Assembly: GCA_903835255.1 (NCBI GenBank)
Contig: CAILMI010000034.1
Span: 1-46,568, forward strand
Source: an uncultured Verrucomicrobia subdivision 3 bacterium
GTDB lineage: Bacteria > Verrucomicrobiota > Verrucomicrobiia > Limisphaerales > UBA11358
Reading direction: 5' to 3'
DNA: 46,568 bases
Positions within the stretch are counted from its first letter, which is position 1; every line of letters begins with the position of its first letter. A model generated the notes under the pieces. The model had not been told where the DNA came from, searched no databases, and worked only from the letters and a program-made list of their open reading frames with translations. A program made the position numbers and the translations under genes. This document shows positions 14,967-25,078 of the stretch, piece after piece.

Positions 14967-17720
14967 ATGAAGGCACTTAGCTCCCACTCGATCCTGGCCC
15001 GGCTCCTGACCCGGCTGGCGGCGACGGTCTGCCGTTATCCCCGCTGGTTTTTGTACCCGCAAATCGTTTTGTTTGCCGGGTGCGTGCTGTACACGGTTGC
15101 CTTTCTCCAGTTCAACACGAACCGGGACGACCTGGTGGATGCGAACAAGAGCAACCACCGGAATTATCTCCGCCTCAGACAGGAATTTCCCCAGCAGAGC
15201 GATCTGGTGATCGTCATTGAGAGCGAAAACATCGAGAAAAACCGGCAGTTTGCCGAGCGGATCGGGGCGAAGCTGGAGGCGGAAACGAACCTGTTCACGG
15301 ACGTTTTCTACAAGGGCGACCTGCCGATGATGGGGGCGAAGGCGCTGCTGTTTGTGCCGGACCGGGACTTGGCCCAGCTGCGGGAGACGCTGCACAACGA
15401 CCTGCCGTTCATCGAAAAGTTCACCCAGACCACGAATCTGGTATCCTTTTTTGAGCAGATCAACACCGCGTTCCGGACGGCGTCCCGCGAGACCAATGCG
15501 CAGACGGCATCCCTGATTCAATCGCTGCCGGCGCTGACGCGCATTGTGACTCAGGCGGATGACACGCTAGGGCGGTCTGGCACGCCGCCCTCGCCCGGGG
15601 TCACGGCGCTGTTTGATGCGGGAGACCAGGCGGTGCGGCAGACGTACATCACGTTCGCCGGGGGGCGGATTTTTCTGGTGACGGCGCATGCCCCGACCCA
15701 GGAGTTGAGCGTGCGGGCGGTGGAGCGGATCCGGGAATTGATCCGGGAAACGCAGGACGAGGTGCCCGGGCTGAATGTGGGTTTCACGGGCGAGCCGGTG
15801 CTGGAGCAGGATGAGATGGCGCAATCGCAGAAGGACACCACTCTGGCCAGCCTGGTGGCGCTGGTGCTGTGCGCATTGATTTTCATTTATGGCTACAACG
15901 AAACCGGGCGGCCGGTAAAGGCCACCCTCTGCCTAGTCGTCGGCTTGGGATACACGATGGCGTTTGCGACCGCGACCATCGGGCATCTGAACATATTGAC
16001 GATCACCTTCGCGCCGATTCTGATCGGGCTGGCGATTGATTACGGCGTGCATCTGGTGACGCGCTATGAGGAAGAGTTGCGCCACGGCAAATCGGAGCAG
16101 GAGGCGCTGACCAAGGCGATGGTGTACACGGGCCAGGGCATTTTCATTGGGGCGCTAACGACGGCGGGAGCGTTTCTGGTGATGGGTCTGACGCATTTCA
16201 AGGGAGTCCAAGAGATGGGCATCATCTGCGGGGGCGGTTTGCTGGTGTGCCTCATCCCCATGATGACATTGCTGCCGGTGCTGTTGCTGCGCGGGCGGCA
16301 GAACGTGATCGATCATCAGATTGGGGATCTGGAGCGGCGCGCGCGCATTGAAAACCTCTGGCTCAAGAGACCGGTGCTGGTGACGGGCCTCGTGCTGGGG
16401 TTGTGCGCGCTGGCGCTGACGCAGGTGCACAAGGTTTATTTTGATTATAACCTGCTGAACATGCAAAGCGCGGGGATGCCGGCGGTGGTATTTGAGCAGA
16501 AGCTGATTGATTCCGCGGACAAATCCGTGATCTACGGCGCGGTGGTTGCTGATTCGCTGGAGGAAGCGGTGCGGCTGGAGGAAACCCTCAAAACGCTGCC
16601 GACCGTGGCCTCCAACGGCGTCCAGTCCATCGCTTTTTTTCTCAACCAGAACCAGACCGAAAAGCTCCAGGTCATCGGCCAGATCAAGCGGGATGTGGAG
16701 CCGCTTCAATTCGGGGAAGCAGACGGACGGGCGGTTAACCTGCCGGCCTTGAGCCGCACGCTGTATTCGCTCCACGGCTATCTGGGCGCGGCTCTGGATG
16801 AGATCAAGAACAGCGACACCAATCTATCGGCGCAGATGGTTTTGCTGCAGACCGCCATCACTGACCTGCGCAAGGCCATGCTGGGCGGGGACGCCACGGC
16901 ACTGGCCCGCCATGCGGACAAGCTGGGGGCTTTTCAGCGGTCCCTGTTTGCTGACGTGCGGGAGACCTTTCAGACCCTGCAGAAACAGGATGACCGCGCC
17001 CCGCTGCGGGTGGAGGATTTGCCGCTGGCGCTGCGCCACCGGTTTGTGGGCGTCACCGGCAAATTTCTTTTGCAGGTCTATCCCAAATACGATGTGTGGC
17101 AGCGGGACCGCCAGGAACAGTTCATCCGGGAATTGCGGACGGTGGACCCCCAAGTCACCGGCACGCCCGTCCAGCTGTACGAATACACCACCCTGCTGAA
17201 AGACAGCTACATCACCGCCGCCTGGTATTCGCTCGCCGCCATCACCGTCCTGGTGCTGCTCCATTTCCGCAGCGTGGGCGCCGTGCTGTTGTCGCTGTTG
17301 CCGGTGGGCATCGGCACGCTCTGGTTGGTGGGACTGATGGGCTGGCTGAAAATTCCCTTCAACCCGGCGAACATCATGACCTTGCCCCTGGTCATTGGCA
17401 TCGGCGTCACCAACGGTATCCATATCCTGAACCGGTTTGCCGAGGAAGGCACTCCGGGCATTTTATCCCGCAGCACTGGCAAGGCCGTGCTGGTATCCGG
17501 ATTGACGGCCATCGCCGGCTTTGGCAGCCTCATGCTGGCCCAGCACCGGGGTATCCACAGCTTGGGATGCGTGATGGCCACCGGCATCGCCACCTGCATG
17601 ATTGCCGGCCTGGCGTTTCTGCCGGCCCTGTTGGAATTGCTGGGACGCCGCAAGCCATTGATAGAAAAACCCGGTGTCAGCAAAACATCGCCAACACCGG
17701 GTCAGGAGGAACCGAGGTGA
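14967..17720 (+). CDS. RND/MMPL-family lipid exporter (HpnN-like)
   Basis: This 917-residue polytopic protein has the RND layout: one N-terminal membrane helix, a periplasmic domain (~55-280), a block of helices (~290-480), a second periplasmic domain and a second helix block (~750-890). The first block has G-L-A-I-D-Y-G-V-H-L-V-T-R-Y-E-E-E, as in MMPL and hopanoid-exporter proteins. The equivalent in the second block, G-I-G-V-T-N-G-I-H-I-L-N-R-F, lacks the Asp. This family moves hopanoids, mycolates or other lipids using the proton gradient. The location just before a repeat protein and mlaEFD supports a lipid-trafficking role. The substrate is unknown. Confidence 0.9.
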   Translation: MKALSSHSILARLLTRLAATVCRYPRWFLYPQIVLFAGCVLYTVAFLQFNTNRDDLVDANKSNHRNYLRLRQEFPQQSDLVIVIESENIEKNRQFAERIGAKLEAETNLFTDVFYKGDLPMMGAKALLFVPDRDLAQLRETLHNDLPFIEKFTQTTNLVSFFEQINTAFRTASRETNAQTASLIQSLPALTRIVTQADDTLGRSGTPPSPGVTALFDAGDQAVRQTYITFAGGRIFLVTAHAPTQELSVRAVERIRELIRETQDEVPGLNVGFTGEPVLEQDEMAQSQKDTTLASLVALVLCALIFIYGYNETGRPVKATLCLVVGLGYTMAFATATIGHLNILTITFAPILIGLAIDYGVHLVTRYEEELRHGKSEQEALTKAMVYTGQGIFIGALTTAGAFLVMGLTHFKGVQEMGIICGGGLLVCLIPMMTLLPVLLLRGRQNVIDHQIGDLERRARIENLWLKRPVLVTGLVLGLCALALTQVHKVYFDYNLLNMQSAGMPAVVFEQKLIDSADKSVIYGAVVADSLEEAVRLEETLKTLPTVASNGVQSIAFFLNQNQTEKLQVIGQIKRDVEPLQFGEADGRAVNLPALSRTLYSLHGYLGAALDEIKNSDTNLSAQMVLLQTAITDLRKAMLGGDATALARHADKLGAFQRSLFADVRETFQTLQKQDDRAPLRVEDLPLALRHRFVGVTGKFLLQVYPKYDVWQRDRQEQFIRELRTVDPQVTGTPVQLYEYTTLLKDSYITAAWYSLAAITVLVLLHFRSVGAVLLSLLPVGIGTLWLVGLMGWLKIPFNPANIMTLPLVIGIGVTNGIHILNRFAEEGTPGILSRSTGKAVLVSGLTAIAGFGSLMLAQHRGIHSLGCVMATGIATCMIAGLAFLPALLELLGRRKPLIEKPGVSKTSPTPGQEEPR

Positions 17721-17731: not shown

Positions 17732-17845
17732 GCCTCCATTGTAATATTAATTAACAAAATGTCAACGCAATCTTGCCGAATGTTAAAAACCGCTTTCGTA
17801 CCCCTTAAAAAACGTTCAAAAGAATAAAGTTAACGTTAATTTAAA

Positions 17846-19336
17846 TTGAATTCATTGATTACATTGTTTGGGGGGCGGAGGGAGGGGCTTGAATGGGCTC
17901 GATTGGGTTGGGCTGTATTTTTGTGGGTTTGGGTGTGTGGGATTGCGAGCCCGGGATTCGCTCAAGACGGGTTCCGGGCGGGACCGTTCTACGATCAGTT
18001 CCCGTTGACGCTCGACGCGGGGCGGCGCACGGAAGCTTTGGGGCCGTTTTTTTATGAGGAGCAGCGGGACGAGGAAAGCACCTGGGCGCTGCCGCCCTTT
18101 TTTTCCCGTCACAGCCAGCCGGGGATTGAGGCGCGGGAATATCAGTTTCTCTATCCTCTGAGCACCTATGAACATTACGGCCAGGAATCCCGCTGGCATT
18201 TTTTCGAGCTGCTGAGCCGGGCAGGCGGGCAGAATACGGCGACCAACTCGTTGGAGAAACGGTTCACCCTCTTTCCGTTCTATTTCCAGCAGCGCTCGCC
18301 GAATCCCCCCGACAATTACACCGCGCTGGTGCCTTTCTACGGCCATATTCACGACCGCATCCTGCGCGACCGGATTTTCTTTGTCCTGTTCCCGATTTAT
18401 GGGCAGTCGCAGAGGAAGGATGTGGTCACGGACAACTATCTCTTCCCGTTCTTTCATCTGCGGCACGGGGACGGGCTGGCGGGCTGGCAATTCTGGCCGT
18501 TGGTGGGCCAGGAGCACAAGTCATTGACCACCAAAACGAACGGATTTGGGGATAGGGTGACCGTGGCTGGGCACGAAAAGTTTTTTGTGCTCTGGCCATT
18601 TTATTTTCACGACACCCTGGGGATCGGCACAGCGAACCTGGAGAAATCCTGGGGGGTGCTGCCTCTGTATGTGCAAGTGCGGTCGCCCCAGAGGGACGTC
18701 ACCACGGTGATCTGGCCTTTTTTCAGCTGGAGCGACGAGCGCGCGAAGCGCTATCACGAGTGGCAGGCGCCCTGGCCATTTGTGATTTTTGCCCGCGGCG
18801 AGGGCAAAACCACCTCGCGCGTCTGGCCGTTGTTCAGCCAGTCCCAGAACACCAACACCACCAGCATTTCCTACCTGTGGCCCCTGTACCAGTACAAGCA
18901 CGTCCGCTCCGATCCGCTGGACCTGCAGCGCACACATCTCCTCGTGTATTTGTATAGCGACACGCAGACAAAAAATACCACCACCGGCGGGGACAAGCGG
19001 CGGGTGGAGTCCCTGCCTTTCTTCACCTATCACCGGGATTACACCGGCAACCGGCGCCTGCAGATCCTCGCGCTTCTGGAGCCGGCCGTGCCTAACAATC
19101 GGGGCATCGAACGTAACTGGTCCCCCCTCTGGTCGCTCTGGGTTTCCGAAAGCAATCCGCGAGCCTGTAAGAATAGCCAATCGCTGCTCTGGAATTTATA
19201 TCGCCATGAATCTGCGCCGGGCGTCAAAAAAGTCTCGCTCCTGTTCGGTCTTTTCCAGTATCACTCTGATTCTGAAATGAAACGCATTCGCCTCGGCTAC
19301 ATCCCGGTGTTCACCGCCCGCCCGACGCCCCCCTGA
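17846..19336 (+). CDS. Secreted repeat protein, putative beta-barrel, Mla-linked
   Basis: This 496-residue protein from a TTG start has an N-terminal hydrophobic signal (W-A-V-F-L-W-V-W-V-C-G-I-A-S-P-G-F-A-Q). From residue ~70 on, a motif of the form [L/I/V/W]-[F/W]-P-[F/L/I]-[F/Y] recurs about 14 times every 20-35 residues (L-F-P-F-Y-F, L-V-P-F-Y-G, L-F-P-I-Y-G, L-W-P-F-Y-F, I-W-P-F-F-S-W, V-W-P-L-F-S, L-W-P-L-Y-Q). Polar, charged turns separate the copies. This looks like a chain of amphipathic beta-hairpins, most simply an outer-membrane barrel or a long beta-sheet conduit. I do not recognise a named family. It ends 3 bp before mlaE, so an outer-membrane or periplasmic partner for the MCE system is plausible but unproven. 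Confidence 0.8.
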   Translation: MNSLITLFGGRREGLEWARLGWAVFLWVWVCGIASPGFAQDGFRAGPFYDQFPLTLDAGRRTEALGPFFYEEQRDEESTWALPPFFSRHSQPGIEAREYQFLYPLSTYEHYGQESRWHFFELLSRAGGQNTATNSLEKRFTLFPFYFQQRSPNPPDNYTALVPFYGHIHDRILRDRIFFVLFPIYGQSQRKDVVTDNYLFPFFHLRHGDGLAGWQFWPLVGQEHKSLTTKTNGFGDRVTVAGHEKFFVLWPFYFHDTLGIGTANLEKSWGVLPLYVQVRSPQRDVTTVIWPFFSWSDERAKRYHEWQAPWPFVIFARGEGKTTSRVWPLFSQSQNTNTTSISYLWPLYQYKHVRSDPLDLQRTHLLVYLYSDTQTKNTTTGGDKRRVESLPFFTYHRDYTGNRRLQILALLEPAVPNNRGIERNWSPLWSLWVSESNPRACKNSQSLLWNLYRHESAPGVKKVSLLFGLFQYHSDSEMKRIRLGYIPVFTARPTPP

Positions 19337-19339
19337 GCC

Positions 19340-20077
19340 ATGTTCCAAAACATCGGTGAAATCGCTCTTTTGTTCTGGCGCACGCTGTGCGCCCTGCCTT
19401 TCGCTTGGCGCCAGCGACAGAAGGTCTACGACCAGTTTTTTGAAATTGGCAACGCTAGCCTGTTAATGGTCTGCGTGCTCTCTTTTTTCATCGGGGCGGT
19501 CATCGCCCTGCAGACCGGCCCGGTGCTGGTGGAACGCAGCCTCTCCAGCGCCGTCGGCGGCATCGTCGGCATCTCCATCGCCAAGGAGCTTGCCCCCGTG
19601 ATGATGGCAATCCTGATCGCCGGGCGCATCGGCTCGGCCATGGCGGCGGAGATCGGCTCCATGCGGGTCTACCAGGAAATCGACGCCCTGCGCACCATGA
19701 ACATCGACCCGATCCATTATCTGGTCCTGCCGCGGATGCTGGCGATCGCCATTGCGCTCCCGCTGCTGGTGGTGTTTGCCATCCTGGTCGGCTGGTTCGG
19801 CGGCGCGGTCATCGCCGAGGCGAACAGCCGGATTGGCGTGCCGTTCCAGGCGTTTTTCTCCGGGCTGCGGGACATCGTCGAGGTCAAGGACGTGGCCAAC
19901 GGCCTCTTCAAAAGCTTCTGTTTCGCCCTGATCATCGGGTCGGTGTCCTGTCATCAGGGCCTGGCCACCCTCGGCGGGCCGCGCGGCATCGGCCGCTCGG
20001 TCACCAAGGCCGTGGTCAATTCCATCGTCCTCATCGTGATTTTCGATTACATCCTTACGCGGTTCCTGCTCAAATGA
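19340..20077 (+). CDS. mlaE: MlaE-type ABC permease
   Basis: This 245-residue inner-membrane permease belongs to the MCE/Mla phospholipid transporter. It has the family hallmarks F-F-I-G-A-V-I-A-L-Q-T-G, A-K-E-L-A-P-V-M-M-A-I-L-I-A-G-R-I-G-S-A-M-A-A-E-I-G-S-M-R-V and E-I-D-A-L-R-T-M-N-I-D-P, with about five hydrophobic segments. The ATG lies 3 bp after the repeat-protein stop, and its stop overlaps mlaF by ATGA. This indicates one operon with tight coupling. Confidence 0.96.
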   Translation: MFQNIGEIALLFWRTLCALPFAWRQRQKVYDQFFEIGNASLLMVCVLSFFIGAVIALQTGPVLVERSLSSAVGGIVGISIAKELAPVMMAILIAGRIGSAMAAEIGSMRVYQEIDALRTMNIDPIHYLVLPRMLAIAIALPLLVVFAILVGWFGGAVIAEANSRIGVPFQAFFSGLRDIVEVKDVANGLFKSFCFALIIGSVSCHQGLATLGGPRGIGRSVTKAVVNSIVLIVIFDYILTRFLLK

Positions 20078-20835
20078 CCCCTCCTCTGGACACAACCAGT
20101 TCCGGCGTGGGCTTGCAGGTGCGCGGCCTCCGCAAAAGCTTTGGCGGACAAGCCGTGCTCCAGGGCGTGGACCTGGAGGTGCGGCCCGGGGAAATTTTTG
20201 TGATCATGGGCCCCAGCGGCAGCGGCAAGAGCGTCCTGCTCAAGCACCTCATCGGCCTGGAAAGCCCCGATGCCGGGGAGATTCTGATCAATGGCGAACC
20301 CGTGCACGCCGCCGCCCTCGCCGCCAAATACCGCATGGCGCTCGTGTTCCAATCCGGCGCGCTCCTCAATTCGCTTACGGTGGGCGAAAACGTGGGGCTT
20401 TACCTCACCGAACACCGCCTGAAATCCCCGGAGGCCATCCGCCAGATCGTCGCCGAAAAACTTGAGGCCGTCGGCCTCGCGGAAGCCGCGGACAAAATGC
20501 CCGGCGAACTTTCCGGCGGCATGAAAAAACGCGCCGCCCTCGCCCGCGCCCTGGTCATCGAACCCCAGCTCATCCTCTACGACGAACCCACCAGCGAACT
20601 CGACCCGCTCTCCTCCATTGTCATCGCCGAGGAGATCCTGGAATTGAAGCACCGCATCCGCGTGACCTCGCTGATCGTCTCGCATGACCGCGACCTGGCC
20701 TTTGGCGTGGCCGACCGCATCGCCTTCATCCATGAGGGCCGCATCCTGATCGTCGGCACTCCGGACGAGGTTAAGCGCTTCCAGAATCCCCTGGTCCAGC
20801 GGTTCCTGCATGCTGACTTTCGCCGTGCCCCCTGA
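20074..20835 (+). CDS. mlaF: MlaF-type ABC ATPase
   Basis: This 253-residue ATPase energises the MlaE permease. Walker A is G-P-S-G-S-G-K-S (46-53), the ABC signature L-S-G-G-M-K-K-R is near 146, Walker B is L-I-L-Y-D-E-P-T-S-E-L-D-P, and the switch His is in S-L-I-V-S-H-D-R. The M-K-K-R after the signature is typical of Mla/TTG2 ATPases. It overlaps mlaE by 4 bp and is followed by mlaD after 30 bp. No mlaB or mlaC is seen in the window. Confidence 0.96.
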   Translation: MTPPLDTTSSGVGLQVRGLRKSFGGQAVLQGVDLEVRPGEIFVIMGPSGSGKSVLLKHLIGLESPDAGEILINGEPVHAAALAAKYRMALVFQSGALLNSLTVGENVGLYLTEHRLKSPEAIRQIVAEKLEAVGLAEAADKMPGELSGGMKKRAALARALVIEPQLILYDEPTSELDPLSSIVIAEEILELKHRIRVTSLIVSHDRDLAFGVADRIAFIHEGRILIVGTPDEVKRFQNPLVQRFLHADFRRAP

Positions 20836-20865
20836 TCCTGATCCGATTTCAAACCCCAAGATTTT

Positions 20866-21816
20866 ATGAAAAATTCGCTCGAAACCCGGCTTGGTATTTT
20901 TGTCGTGCTCGCCGTCTTTGCCGCCATCCTCGTCATCGAAATGCTCGGCGGCCTGGAATCCCTGCGCACCGGCCTCCACGTCAGCGCCCTGTTCGACACC
21001 GTGCAGGAACTGAAGGTGGGCGACACCGTGAAAATGGCCGGCGTGGAAATCGGCCGGGTCGATGGAATCGCTTTTGCCGACAACAAGGTCCGGGTGACGA
21101 TGAAGCTGCGGCCCGGGGTCGGAGTCAAGACCGACAGCCAGGCGGTGATCAAGTTCGCCGGGCTGATGGGCCAGAATTTCGTCTCCATCAACTTTGGATC
21201 CCCGGGCGGGCCCGTGGCCGTGGACGGCTCCGTGATTGCCAGCGAGGAACAGCCCGACCTGAGCGCCATTATGGCCAAGCTGGACAAGGCGGCCTCCGGT
21301 ATCCAGAAATTCGGCGACAGTTTCTCGGGCGACAAGATCGACAACATCCTCGGACCGCTGACGGACTTCTTCAAACAGAACAGCAGCCACATGAGCGGGA
21401 TCATCTCCAATGTGGACAATGTCACCGGCCAGATCGCCGGCGGCCAGGGGACGGTCGGCCGGCTGATTTATCAGGATGCTCTCTATAATTCGGCTCTGAA
21501 CACGGTGACGAATTTGCAGGACGCCATCGTTCAGGTGCGCGGGGTGGTGGATGGAATCAGCAGCGGCAAGGGCACCATCGGCAAGCTCGTCAACGATGAG
21601 TCGCTCTTCAATTCCACCGCGGCCTCGATGACCAACCTGAATCAGATTCTATTCAAGATCAACCAAGGGGACGGCACCATCGGCAAGCTCGTCAACAATC
21701 AGGAGTTCTACCAGAATGCCAAGGTCTCCCTCCAAAAGCTGGATAAAGCCGCCGACAGCATTGAGGACACCGGCCCGCTGAGCGTCATCGGCATCATCGC
21801 CGGCCGCCTGTTCTAG
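20866..21816 (+). CDS. mlaD: MCE-domain protein, MlaD-like
   Basis: This 316-residue protein has one N-terminal membrane anchor (F-V-V-L-A-V-F-A-A-I-L-V-I-E) and then an MCE domain (~residues 35-130: V-G-D-T-V-K-M-A-G-V-E-I-G-R-V, G-L-M-G-Q-N-F-V-S-I-N-F-G). The C-terminal ~180 residues are helical, with repeats such as G-G-Q-G-T-V-G-R-L-I, G-K-G-T-I-G-K-L-V-N-D and G-D-G-T-I-G-K-L-V-N-N, the usual tail of longer MCE proteins. MlaD hexamers form the periplasmic lipid channel on MlaEF. The tail is longer than in E. coli MlaD, suggesting a needle or spacer toward the outer membrane. Confidence 0.95.
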   Translation: MKNSLETRLGIFVVLAVFAAILVIEMLGGLESLRTGLHVSALFDTVQELKVGDTVKMAGVEIGRVDGIAFADNKVRVTMKLRPGVGVKTDSQAVIKFAGLMGQNFVSINFGSPGGPVAVDGSVIASEEQPDLSAIMAKLDKAASGIQKFGDSFSGDKIDNILGPLTDFFKQNSSHMSGIISNVDNVTGQIAGGQGTVGRLIYQDALYNSALNTVTNLQDAIVQVRGVVDGISSGKGTIGKLVNDESLFNSTAASMTNLNQILFKINQGDGTIGKLVNNQEFYQNAKVSLQKLDKAADSIEDTGPLSVIGIIAGRLF

Positions 21817-23061: not shown

Positions 23062-24309
23062 TTAGAACGTGTAGATTAACTGGGCGGCGAGCAACCAGGC
23101 TTCGCTCTGGTTGAGTTCTCCGCTGCTGATGCTGCTGTAGCCGTTGCCATGTTCCACATGGTCCCAGCGCGCTTCCACACGGCTGATCACGTTCGCCCAC
23201 AGGTTGTACTGAACCGTGGCGGTGATTTCGTCCGCAGCGTTGTTTTCGCCACCGTTCCCGTAGTAATCTGAGTAGGTGGTGTAGGCTCCGGCATTAAGAG
23301 CCGAAGAGCCCGACAGATGTTCATAACGCAGGTTGAGGCTCAACTTGTCGTTGAACGCGTAGGTGCTGTACCCGGCGAGGTTCCAGGTGTTGCCACCGGA
23401 ATGCACGTTCAGGTAGTCAAACGAGCCGCCGAACTTGAGCTTGGCGATCGGCGTGGGAACCGTGGCGCCCACATAATAGCTGGTCGCGCCCGTGGGGTCG
23501 CCGTCAACGTTTGTGCCTTCCGAGGTGTTGATGACCACACCGGACAGAACCGCGCCCTTGGCCCAGCCGAAGCTGTCAGGAGCCGTGAGGGAGACGCCGC
23601 CGATGAGGGTCGGGTTGCTCAGGCCGCCATTGTTGCCGTTGGCGCCGGAGTTATTGATGTTCGCGGTGTAAGCCGAGCCATCAAACGAGGTGTTGGCAAT
23701 GCCGCCCTGGAGGGTGACGATGTCATTGACCTTGTAGGAAGCCAGCGCGCCCGTGTGGGTGGTCGGCTCGATGTTGAATCCGAAGGAGCGGCTGTAGTTC
23801 GGGTTGTTGCCCGAGGTCAGGCTTTCGTAGCCGATAATCGTGTCAAACACGCCGATTTTCCAGTCGATGCCGTTGCCCACCGGGGTGCGCAGGGCGATGT
23901 AGGCCGAGCGGATGGCGGCCTGGCTGTCCGAGGACGAGGTGCCCAAGGTTGTGCCATCCGGTCCGAGCCAGAGCTCGACATGATAGCCAGCTGCCCAGGG
24001 GGATTCATCCAGCGGCTTGTCCAGCGCGAGATCCACCACATTGAGGCTGATCTGGTTGGCTTTGTTGCCGAGGTTGTAGTTCGGGCCGGAGCTGACGGAG
24101 GAGTACCCTTCGCCATCGACATAAGCACCCGGGTGGGTGCCGCCGCCGCCGGGGTTGAACTGAGCTGACACGTCAACGTAGCCGCTGAGAGTCGTGTTCG
24201 AGAGCGCGGTTTGCACCTGGCTCATCTTTGTTTCGTCTGCACGCGCCGCCGAGGCCAAACTGACCACGCCGACTGCTGCCAGACCCAATGTCCATTGATT
24301 AAACTTCAT
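23062..24309 (-). CDS. BBP2 (OmpL-like) outer-membrane porin
   Basis: This 415-residue protein starts at ATG 24309 with a strong Shine-Dalgarno (GGAGGAACC) 7-8 nt upstream. The signal peptide ends A-S-A-A-R-A. The mature part is a beta-barrel with alternating aromatic strands, N-P-N-Y-S-R-S-F-G-F-N-I-E-P-T-T-H-T-G (a beta-barrel-porin-2 hallmark) and a terminal Phe after L-I-Y-T. The likely role is diffusion of small solutes across the outer membrane. The strong ribosome site, codon-rich Gly/Asn/Ser loops and strong terminator suggest high expression. Confidence 0.92.
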   Translation of the reverse strand: MKFNQWTLGLAAVGVVSLASAARADETKMSQVQTALSNTTLSGYVDVSAQFNPGGGGTHPGAYVDGEGYSSVSSGPNYNLGNKANQISLNVVDLALDKPLDESPWAAGYHVELWLGPDGTTLGTSSSDSQAAIRSAYIALRTPVGNGIDWKIGVFDTIIGYESLTSGNNPNYSRSFGFNIEPTTHTGALASYKVNDIVTLQGGIANTSFDGSAYTANINNSGANGNNGGLSNPTLIGGVSLTAPDSFGWAKGAVLSGVVINTSEGTNVDGDPTGATSYYVGATVPTPIAKLKFGGSFDYLNVHSGGNTWNLAGYSTYAFNDKLSLNLRYEHLSGSSALNAGAYTTYSDYYGNGGENNAADEITATVQYNLWANVISRVEARWDHVEHGNGYSSISSGELNQSEAWLLAAQLIYTF

Positions 24310-24356
24310 CTGGTTCCTCCGATGTTGTTTGTTGTTTGTTGACTGCCTGCATTTTA

Positions 24357-24375
24357 GGGCAAAACCGGTTTGCCC
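24357..24375. promoter_or_regulatory. Palindromic operator candidate upstream of porin
   Basis: GGGCAAA (24357-24363) and TTTGCCC (24369-24375) are 7-bp inverted half-sites with a 5-bp centre. They lie 48-66 bp before the porin ATG, next to a minus-strand CTAAAAT -10-like box. A regulator dimer site is plausible. Confidence 0.4.
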
Positions 24376-25078
24376 CGTTCGCACCATTTCTGATGCAATT
24401 GAGGCTGAAACTAGTGAAAACCCAAGGGAATGACAACAATTTTTTTCAGCCCTAGCGTTGCCCTCCCCCGTCGGGCAGGGTGGAAAGGCTGGATTTGGCC
24501 ATTTTTGGGGCTTTTTAGGCCTAATTCCGAAATAGAGGCTCGCCAATCCTAGCAGGGACAGCGCCGAAAAAACCGGTCCCCTCTTGTATCTGAATTTCCG
24601 TCTAACTTTGTCTATGAGGAAGATGGGACTAACCGCTCACGCTTTCGCGGGGCGAGGGGGAGGACTTGCGCGAGAGTCGGGCCCGCTTCATTCGGCGGGT
24701 GAACGTTTTAATTTGAATCTCCATTCTGAATTTAAGATGGGGATCCAACGGCGAGGCGTCGCTGCCTTCACTCCCTCTCTTCCATGAAAATGGAGGAGAG
24801 GGCTGGGGGAGGCGCTGGGAGACGGTCGAAGGGCTCCGAGAGCATGGCCTGCTTCGGAATTCGGGTTTAGCCTGATTTCAGGCCGGGGACGGCTTAAAAA
24901 CGGGACACTCCGGCGGGGTTCTTTTCCCAGTTCAAGGTGCGCCCGCCTTGAAATACTGGTTTCAGCCGTGTGGAACAATTGATGCTTTCACGGGTGCAAG
25001 AGCGAACTGCAGGCTTGCAATTGCCGTGGGTTGTTTTATCACGGGCGCAGTCGATTTTGCCAATTTTATCAACTCACT
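24376..25078. other. Long intergenic region with hairpins
   Basis: I see no convincing gene in this region between the divergent porin and gspF genes. It holds a 13-bp perfect-type hairpin at 24773-24802 with a GAAA loop (arms CCCTCTCTTCCAT / ATGGAGGAGAGGG, one G-T). Close to gspF there is a two-part stem at 24989-25028 (CACGG/CCGTG outside, TGCAAG/CTTGCA inside) that could form in the gspF leader. Confidence 0.5.

Follow-up and report, generated by a model that had tools for sequence, protein, structure and literature searches.

MCE transporters require something at the outer membrane, and the described bacterial systems supply it in different ways. In Proteobacteria, the outer-membrane side is served by MlaA with a porin together with MlaC; in Veillonella, MlaD itself carries a barrel; and for the Planctomycetes-Verrucomicrobia-Chlamydiae (PVC) bacteria the solution had not been described (PMC10665443). 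The C-terminal beta-barrel of MlaD is reported to be completely absent from PVC bacteria and from the Fibrobacteres-Chlorobi-Bacteroidetes (FCB) group (PMC10665443), and therefore an outer-membrane-side partner was missing in the PVC group. This Veillonella study was the only relevant paper found in the literature on a Verrucomicrobia MCE partner. Here, we analyze a stretch of 46,568 nucleotides (the window), contig CAILMI010000034.1 of an uncultured Verrucomicrobia subdivision 3 bacterium, and focus on the gene directly upstream of its mlaE-mlaF-mlaD operon. RepP, the working name given to its product in this analysis, is very probably a functional partner of one mlaEFD subtype, and it provides a specific, phylum-wide candidate for the PVC gap.

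Results

The permease, ATPase, and MCE-domain genes of an MCE/Mla transport system lie together at 19340-21816. The RepP open reading frame (ORF) encodes 496 amino acids from a putative TTG start, with no in-frame ATG; its stop codon ends at 19336 and the mlaE ATG begins at 19340, leaving the gap of 3 bp that the initial annotation had reported. In all 20 loci from distant families, at 23–29% RepP identity, RepP is followed by mlaE and mlaF in the same direction, and mlaD is also present in 19 of them. Among nearer loci, mlaE lies directly downstream of RepP in 79 of 85, using a 1.5 kb flank that was shorter in some of the other six. An all-against-all comparison of ORFs around 25 loci identified RepP-mlaE-mlaF-mlaD as the sole conserved block; the other recurrent ORF clusters either resembled antisense frames of the block genes or were confined to small groups of relatives.

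The source genome contains three mlaE genes. Its second mlaEFD operon (G000:C20:26000-36500, locus L123) has no RepP and a different clade of MlaE. RepP was absent from this operon and from 19 further mla contexts, which were either paralogous operons or came from genomes negative for RepP; the set of 20 was selected and is not a random sample. On this basis, a role of RepP as partner of MlaE in general was rejected. In a tree of MlaE proteins, the label “RepP-linked” or “unlinked” changed 2 times, compared with 18.4 times in shuffles, and the mlaE of the second source-genome operon grouped in an unlinked clade. The few label changes and the paralogous operons devoid of RepP therefore tie RepP to a particular MCE operon and show that RepP tracks one MCE subtype. 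The initial annotation had proposed RepP as a partner of the MCE system, and this proposal gains support from the phylum-wide synteny, from the restriction to one subtype, and from a co-occurring trait of MlaD described below.

RepP was present in 49 of 49 genomes searched from the same genus. Profile searches recovered it from 265 of the 320 genomes examined in the order (143 of the 154 of good quality) and from 113 of 288 sampled across the phylum. A scan of genome contigs with the single sequence returned records titled Verrucomicrobia, two titled “bacterium,” and one titled Akkermansia, all of them metagenome bins. None of the 20 genomes listed as lacking mlaE contained RepP.

Neither MlaA (PF04333) nor MlaC (PF05494), the markers of the classical Mla pathway, was found in the source genome. 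Because the barrel is also reported to be absent from PVC MlaDs, the operon appears to be left without any outer-membrane part known from other Mla systems. MlaC was detected in 11 of 115 genomes of the phylum. MlaA was detected in 113 of 288, and its distribution was skewed: it occurred in 10 of 113 RepP-positive genomes versus 103 of 175 RepP-negative genomes (Fisher p ∼5e-19, uncorrected for relatedness). Many Verrucomicrobiota carry the MlaA domain (family f60 and relatives, e.g., G330:C1:2910888) inside open frames of ∼620–880 codons, versus the typical ∼250–300; these long-frame MlaA proteins may be fused to another domain.

The elongated MlaD of this operon has a short hydrophobic tail at its C-terminus. 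This is a shared trait of RepP-linked MlaDs, in which the last residue was F (25) or L (5) in 30 of 30 proteins. An F- or L-ending tail was found in 0 of 19 unlinked MlaDs, which have polar or charged last residues. The restriction of this trait to RepP-linked MlaDs suggests the far end of MlaD as the point of contact, and we infer that RepP contacts MlaD through the tail.

RepP itself appears to represent an undescribed protein family, as the initial annotation had suggested: searches of Pfam, NCBIfam, PHROGs, and PDB sequences with the single protein and with profiles found nothing. The repeat motif on which that annotation was based is real. RepP contains 15 copies of [FWYLIVM]P[FWYLIVM], where about fourteen had been noted, compared with a mean of 4.3 (maximum 11) in 2000 shuffles, and 12 copies of a stricter motif of two hydrophobic residues, Pro, and a hydrophobic residue, compared with 1.5 (maximum 6). 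The spacing is mostly 17–22 residues, shorter than the 20–35 originally given, and in the larger gaps the turn remains hydrophobic with the Pro lost (FEL, LVYL, LWNL, LFGL). With numbering of the mature protein beginning at 17963, the near-invariant prolines are residues 28, 45, 65, 105, 124, 144, 162, 179, 212, 234, 252, 272, 289, 307, and 352. All 15 are kept at 97–100% even though distant members fall below 30% identity; thus, the number of hairpins is fixed.

A signal peptide had been noted ahead of the repeats, and the homologs agree: a hydrophobic N-terminal 12-mer was found in 167 of the 176 with readable upstream sequence. A lipobox-like motif occurred in just 14 of the same 176, which makes it unlikely that RepP is a lipoprotein. 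At the level of sequence, RepP carries an export signal, probably a Sec signal peptide.

AlphaFold, using 18 sequences, predicted one meander of ∼43–45 strands of ∼6 residues (5–8) with a predicted local distance difference test score (pLDDT) of 81.5 and a predicted template modelling score (pTM) of 0.61. The sub-region comprising residues 126-372, modelled separately, gave identical strands (pLDDT 80.4). Co-variation was analyzed as direct couplings in 251 homologs (effective number 214); the strand limits were taken from the AlphaFold model, and the couplings are independent of it. Among neighbouring strand pairs, 39 of 44 couple antiparallel at z of at least 2. Couplings were seen across polar turns (GQ, z 9.0; KD, z 9.5) and across aromatic-Pro turns (LFPI, z 10.0; IWPF, z 7.8; LWPF, z 6.3). 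Because strand 19 pairs with strand 22 (z 9.6), strands 20-21 constitute an insertion. By prediction plus co-variation, then, RepP is shown as an unbroken antiparallel beta-meander of short modelled strands. The regular beta-hairpins anticipated from the motif are borne out both by the AlphaFold model and, independently, by the homologs.

The chemistry of the repeats is equally regular. Positions −4 to +2 around the Pro are hydrophobic (FILMVWY fraction ∼0.5–0.97, the Pro itself excepted), and positions ∼5 or more residues from it are polar on both faces (0.07–0.3). Since polar turns alternate with aromatic-Pro turns, the RepP ribbon has one hydrophobic edge and one polar edge. A model in which the aromatic-Pro segment lies in the middle of a 16-residue transmembrane strand was rejected because co-variation places hairpins at the Pro turns. 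A beta-propeller was rejected as well; the weak neighbour pairs are not periodic and do not show breaks of period 4, and WD40 matches in Foldseek had TM-scores below 0.2. The initial annotation had named a soluble propeller or a known enzyme fold as outcomes that would speak against its proposal; structure prediction and fold comparison yielded neither.

These features bear directly on the suggestion that RepP is a true outer-membrane beta-barrel, a bacterial analogue of TGD4 that would move lipid across, or accept it, at the tip of MlaD. RepP does have a signal peptide, an all-beta and aromatic-rich character, tight polar turns, and partial structural overlap with the walls of porins, LptD, and Tom40/VDAC. 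However, a barrel would call for strands of ∼9 residues or more with a hydrophobic outer face, and the strands are 5–8 residues long in two models, with residues at least 5 positions from the Pro polar on both faces. Every strand is closed off by a hairpin at either end, polar and Pro turns alike, so the strands do not join into longer, membrane-spanning ones. Moreover, RepP lacks the C-terminal aromatic beta-signal of outer-membrane proteins; the C-termini are polar or Pro-rich, and some bear long low-complexity extensions. We therefore consider a barrel, as first annotated, very unlikely.

The best partial fold matches were to the TCP10 domain of CPAP (Z 11.3; 175–177 residues, root-mean-square deviation [rmsd] 8–13 Å), engineered OspA (Z 9.0 and 10.0), and MORN proteins (Z 8–9.6, rmsd 7–10 Å). 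The walls of porins, LptD, and Tom40/VDAC ranked lower, at Z 6–9 (OmpT, Z 8.3, 5.9 Å over 152 residues). Large rmsd values and low Foldseek TM-scores mean that these matches indicate a type of architecture and not kinship. At E 1, the MORN profile matched none of 18 RepP members; no match linked RepP to the TCP10/CPAP G-box in Pfam or PDB sequences; and Foldseek against viral models gave weak, mixed matches only. Like the TCP10 domain (G-box) of CPAP/SAS-4, RepP may be a freestanding single-layer antiparallel meander of short strands, but its strands are twice as many, aromatic-Pro turns give it a hydrophobic edge, it has a signal peptide, and no sequence match links the two. With MORN1 and junctophilin it may share beta-hairpin repeats of ∼20 residues in an extended meander; MORN repeats, in contrast, are Gly-rich, whereas RepP has Pro turns and a fixed repeat number.

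TCP10 consists of a single-layer sheet of ∼20 successive strands, with its partner bound along one of the edges (PMC3776556). This precedent, and the polar strands that RepP has in common with soluble MORN and TCP10 meanders, would suit a soluble scaffold in the periplasm for the inner-membrane MlaEFD/MlaD complex, such as an assembly factor or a collar on the needle, whose aromatic-Pro edge grips MlaD and which has no outer-membrane role. The operon and subtype evidence fits such a scaffold equally well. However, the MlaD trait associated with RepP lies at the far end, away from the membrane anchor, and RepP is anticorrelated with MlaA, an outer-membrane part; we regard the scaffold as possible but rather unlikely.

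RepP also partially matched the beta-belt of ApoB (Z 9.8 and 11.9). This likeness, the continuous hydrophobic edge, and the scarcity of MlaC in the phylum and its absence from the searched source genome would fit a substrate-side lipid carrier or sensor that replaces MlaC, with lipid held along the edge and ferried or bridged between MlaD and the outer membrane. Yet the hydrophobic band is narrow (∼5–7 residues), no groove is predicted, and the ApoB match is coarse (rmsd 6–11 Å), making a carrier distinctly improbable.

The RepP ribbon may be open, coiled, or closed. The strongest two long-range couplings, 48-385 and 46-386, link the two ends of RepP and hint at closure; they are unstable under subsampling. 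The same couplings place the conserved helical insert possibly in touch with strand 5. A closed object would agree with the unvarying number of repeats and with prolines that hardly vary. A closed ring or crown of ∼43 strands, with ∼20 aromatic-Pro turns set in one membrane leaflet around the MlaD tip, is nevertheless a speculative and unlikely form for RepP; such a ring would be a barrel-less outer-membrane lipid port of an unprecedented type.

Locus features

Coordinates are collected in Table 1. At the genus level, 28 of 30 loci (L001-L030) have TAACG[AT]TA ahead of RepP, where 0.39 are expected, at a varying distance; the copy upstream of the operon, a palindrome, is the sole site within the window. 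This sequence is a candidate operator or promoter element of the RepP operon. Directly upstream of RepP, at 14967-17720, lies a gene for an MMPL/RND protein similar to HpnN, a hopanoid transporter, with a score of 580 bits against a cut-off of 752 bits; this gene was rejected as a part of the system because it adjoins RepP among close relatives only. A porin-like gene is located downstream of the operon at 23062-24546, and one relative has two tandem copies (L034:14914-17401).

Table 1. Features of the RepP-mlaEFD locus, in window positions.
Feature	Position	Strand	Basis
RepP, predicted exported beta-meander protein	17846..19336	+	ORF call with putative TTG start; no family match; homolog searches
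Probable Sec (signal peptidase I type) signal peptide, residues 1-39	17846..17962	+	h-region followed by PGFA|Q-like site
15 near-invariant prolines of aromatic-Pro turns	18044..19018	+	each 97–100% conserved in 251 homologs
Inserted hairpin, strands 20-21	18527..18565	+	co-variation of strands 19-22, z 9.6
Conserved helical insert, mature residues ∼370-392, EPxxPxNxGIERNWSPLWSL	19070..19138	+	AlphaFold helix 380-390; conservation; weak couplings 48-385, 46-386
mlaE, permease	19340..20077	+	PF02405 1.8e-72; TIGR00056 above cut-off
mlaF, ATPase	20074..20835	+	PF00005 6e-33; MlaF model NF008809 match below cut-off
mlaD, elongated MCE protein, 316 amino acids	20866..21816	+	PF02470 6.9e-17
Hydrophobic C-terminal tail of MlaD, EDTGPLSVIGIIAGRLF, proposed contact to RepP or outer membrane	21763..21813	+	tail comparison, linked versus unlinked MlaDs
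Candidate regulatory site upstream of operon (genus level), TAACGTTA	17831..17838	.	TAACG[AT]TA enrichment upstream of RepP

Discussion

We propose that RepP is a dedicated fourth component of a Verrucomicrobiota MCE (Mla-type) lipid transporter and docks the tip of MlaD to the outer membrane, a proposal for which we judge the case evenly balanced. RepP would be exported through its Sec signal peptide and would fold into a continuous meander of ∼43 short strands. MlaE and MlaF would reside in the inner membrane, and MlaD would be a needle spanning the periplasm, its distal end received by RepP, most likely via the conserved hydrophobic C-terminal tail. The hydrophobic edge of RepP would hold the MlaD tip against the outer membrane's inner leaflet and let lipid through. 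In this lineage, RepP would thus replace MlaA/MlaC or the C-terminal barrel of MlaD. An outer-membrane location for RepP is plausible, and a docking role on that side stands, in our estimation, at an even balance; the touching of RepP and MlaD, the placement of the hydrophobic edge in the outer membrane, and the passage of lipid there are what we infer from the combined data.

Several points weigh against this proposal. The outer-membrane location of RepP and its binding to MlaD are predictions. The AlphaFold models, built from 18 sequences with a pTM of 0.61, leave the overall shape unfixed, and what is taken for a hydrophobic edge could instead form a core buried in the protein. Ten genomes carry RepP and MlaA together, and the correlations of RepP with the MlaD tail and with MlaA span few evolutionary events. 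Finally, four near-identical loci (L042-L045) have RepP and no mlaE match nearby in the stretch examined; the RepP operon seems to be split in the clade of L042, L043, L044, and L045.

The matching MlaD tail gives a clear handle on the RepP candidate, and a freestanding meander of ∼43 strands would be unusually large of its kind. RepP is most aptly viewed as adding a new, unusually folded component to an established kind of transporter.

Among described systems, the minimal MlaEFD of Veillonella parvula likewise has a long MlaD, lacks MlaA and MlaC, and is proposed to form a transenvelope bridge (PMC10665443). There, MlaD has its own C-terminal beta-barrel, whereas none is expected in this locus, which has a short hydrophobic tail and a separate RepP. 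The E. coli Mla system (MlaA-MlaBDEF-MlaC) shares MlaE, MlaF, and MlaD homologs encoded in one operon; in contrast to E. coli, which has MlaA and MlaC, the source genome appears to have neither, RepP stands in their place, and MlaD is elongated. The chloroplast TGD/MCE system offers a third comparison, since TGD4, like RepP, is an all-beta addition to an MCE transporter and acts on its outer-membrane side, although this role is assigned to RepP by analogy only; TGD4 is regarded as a barrel, whereas RepP is not predicted to be one.
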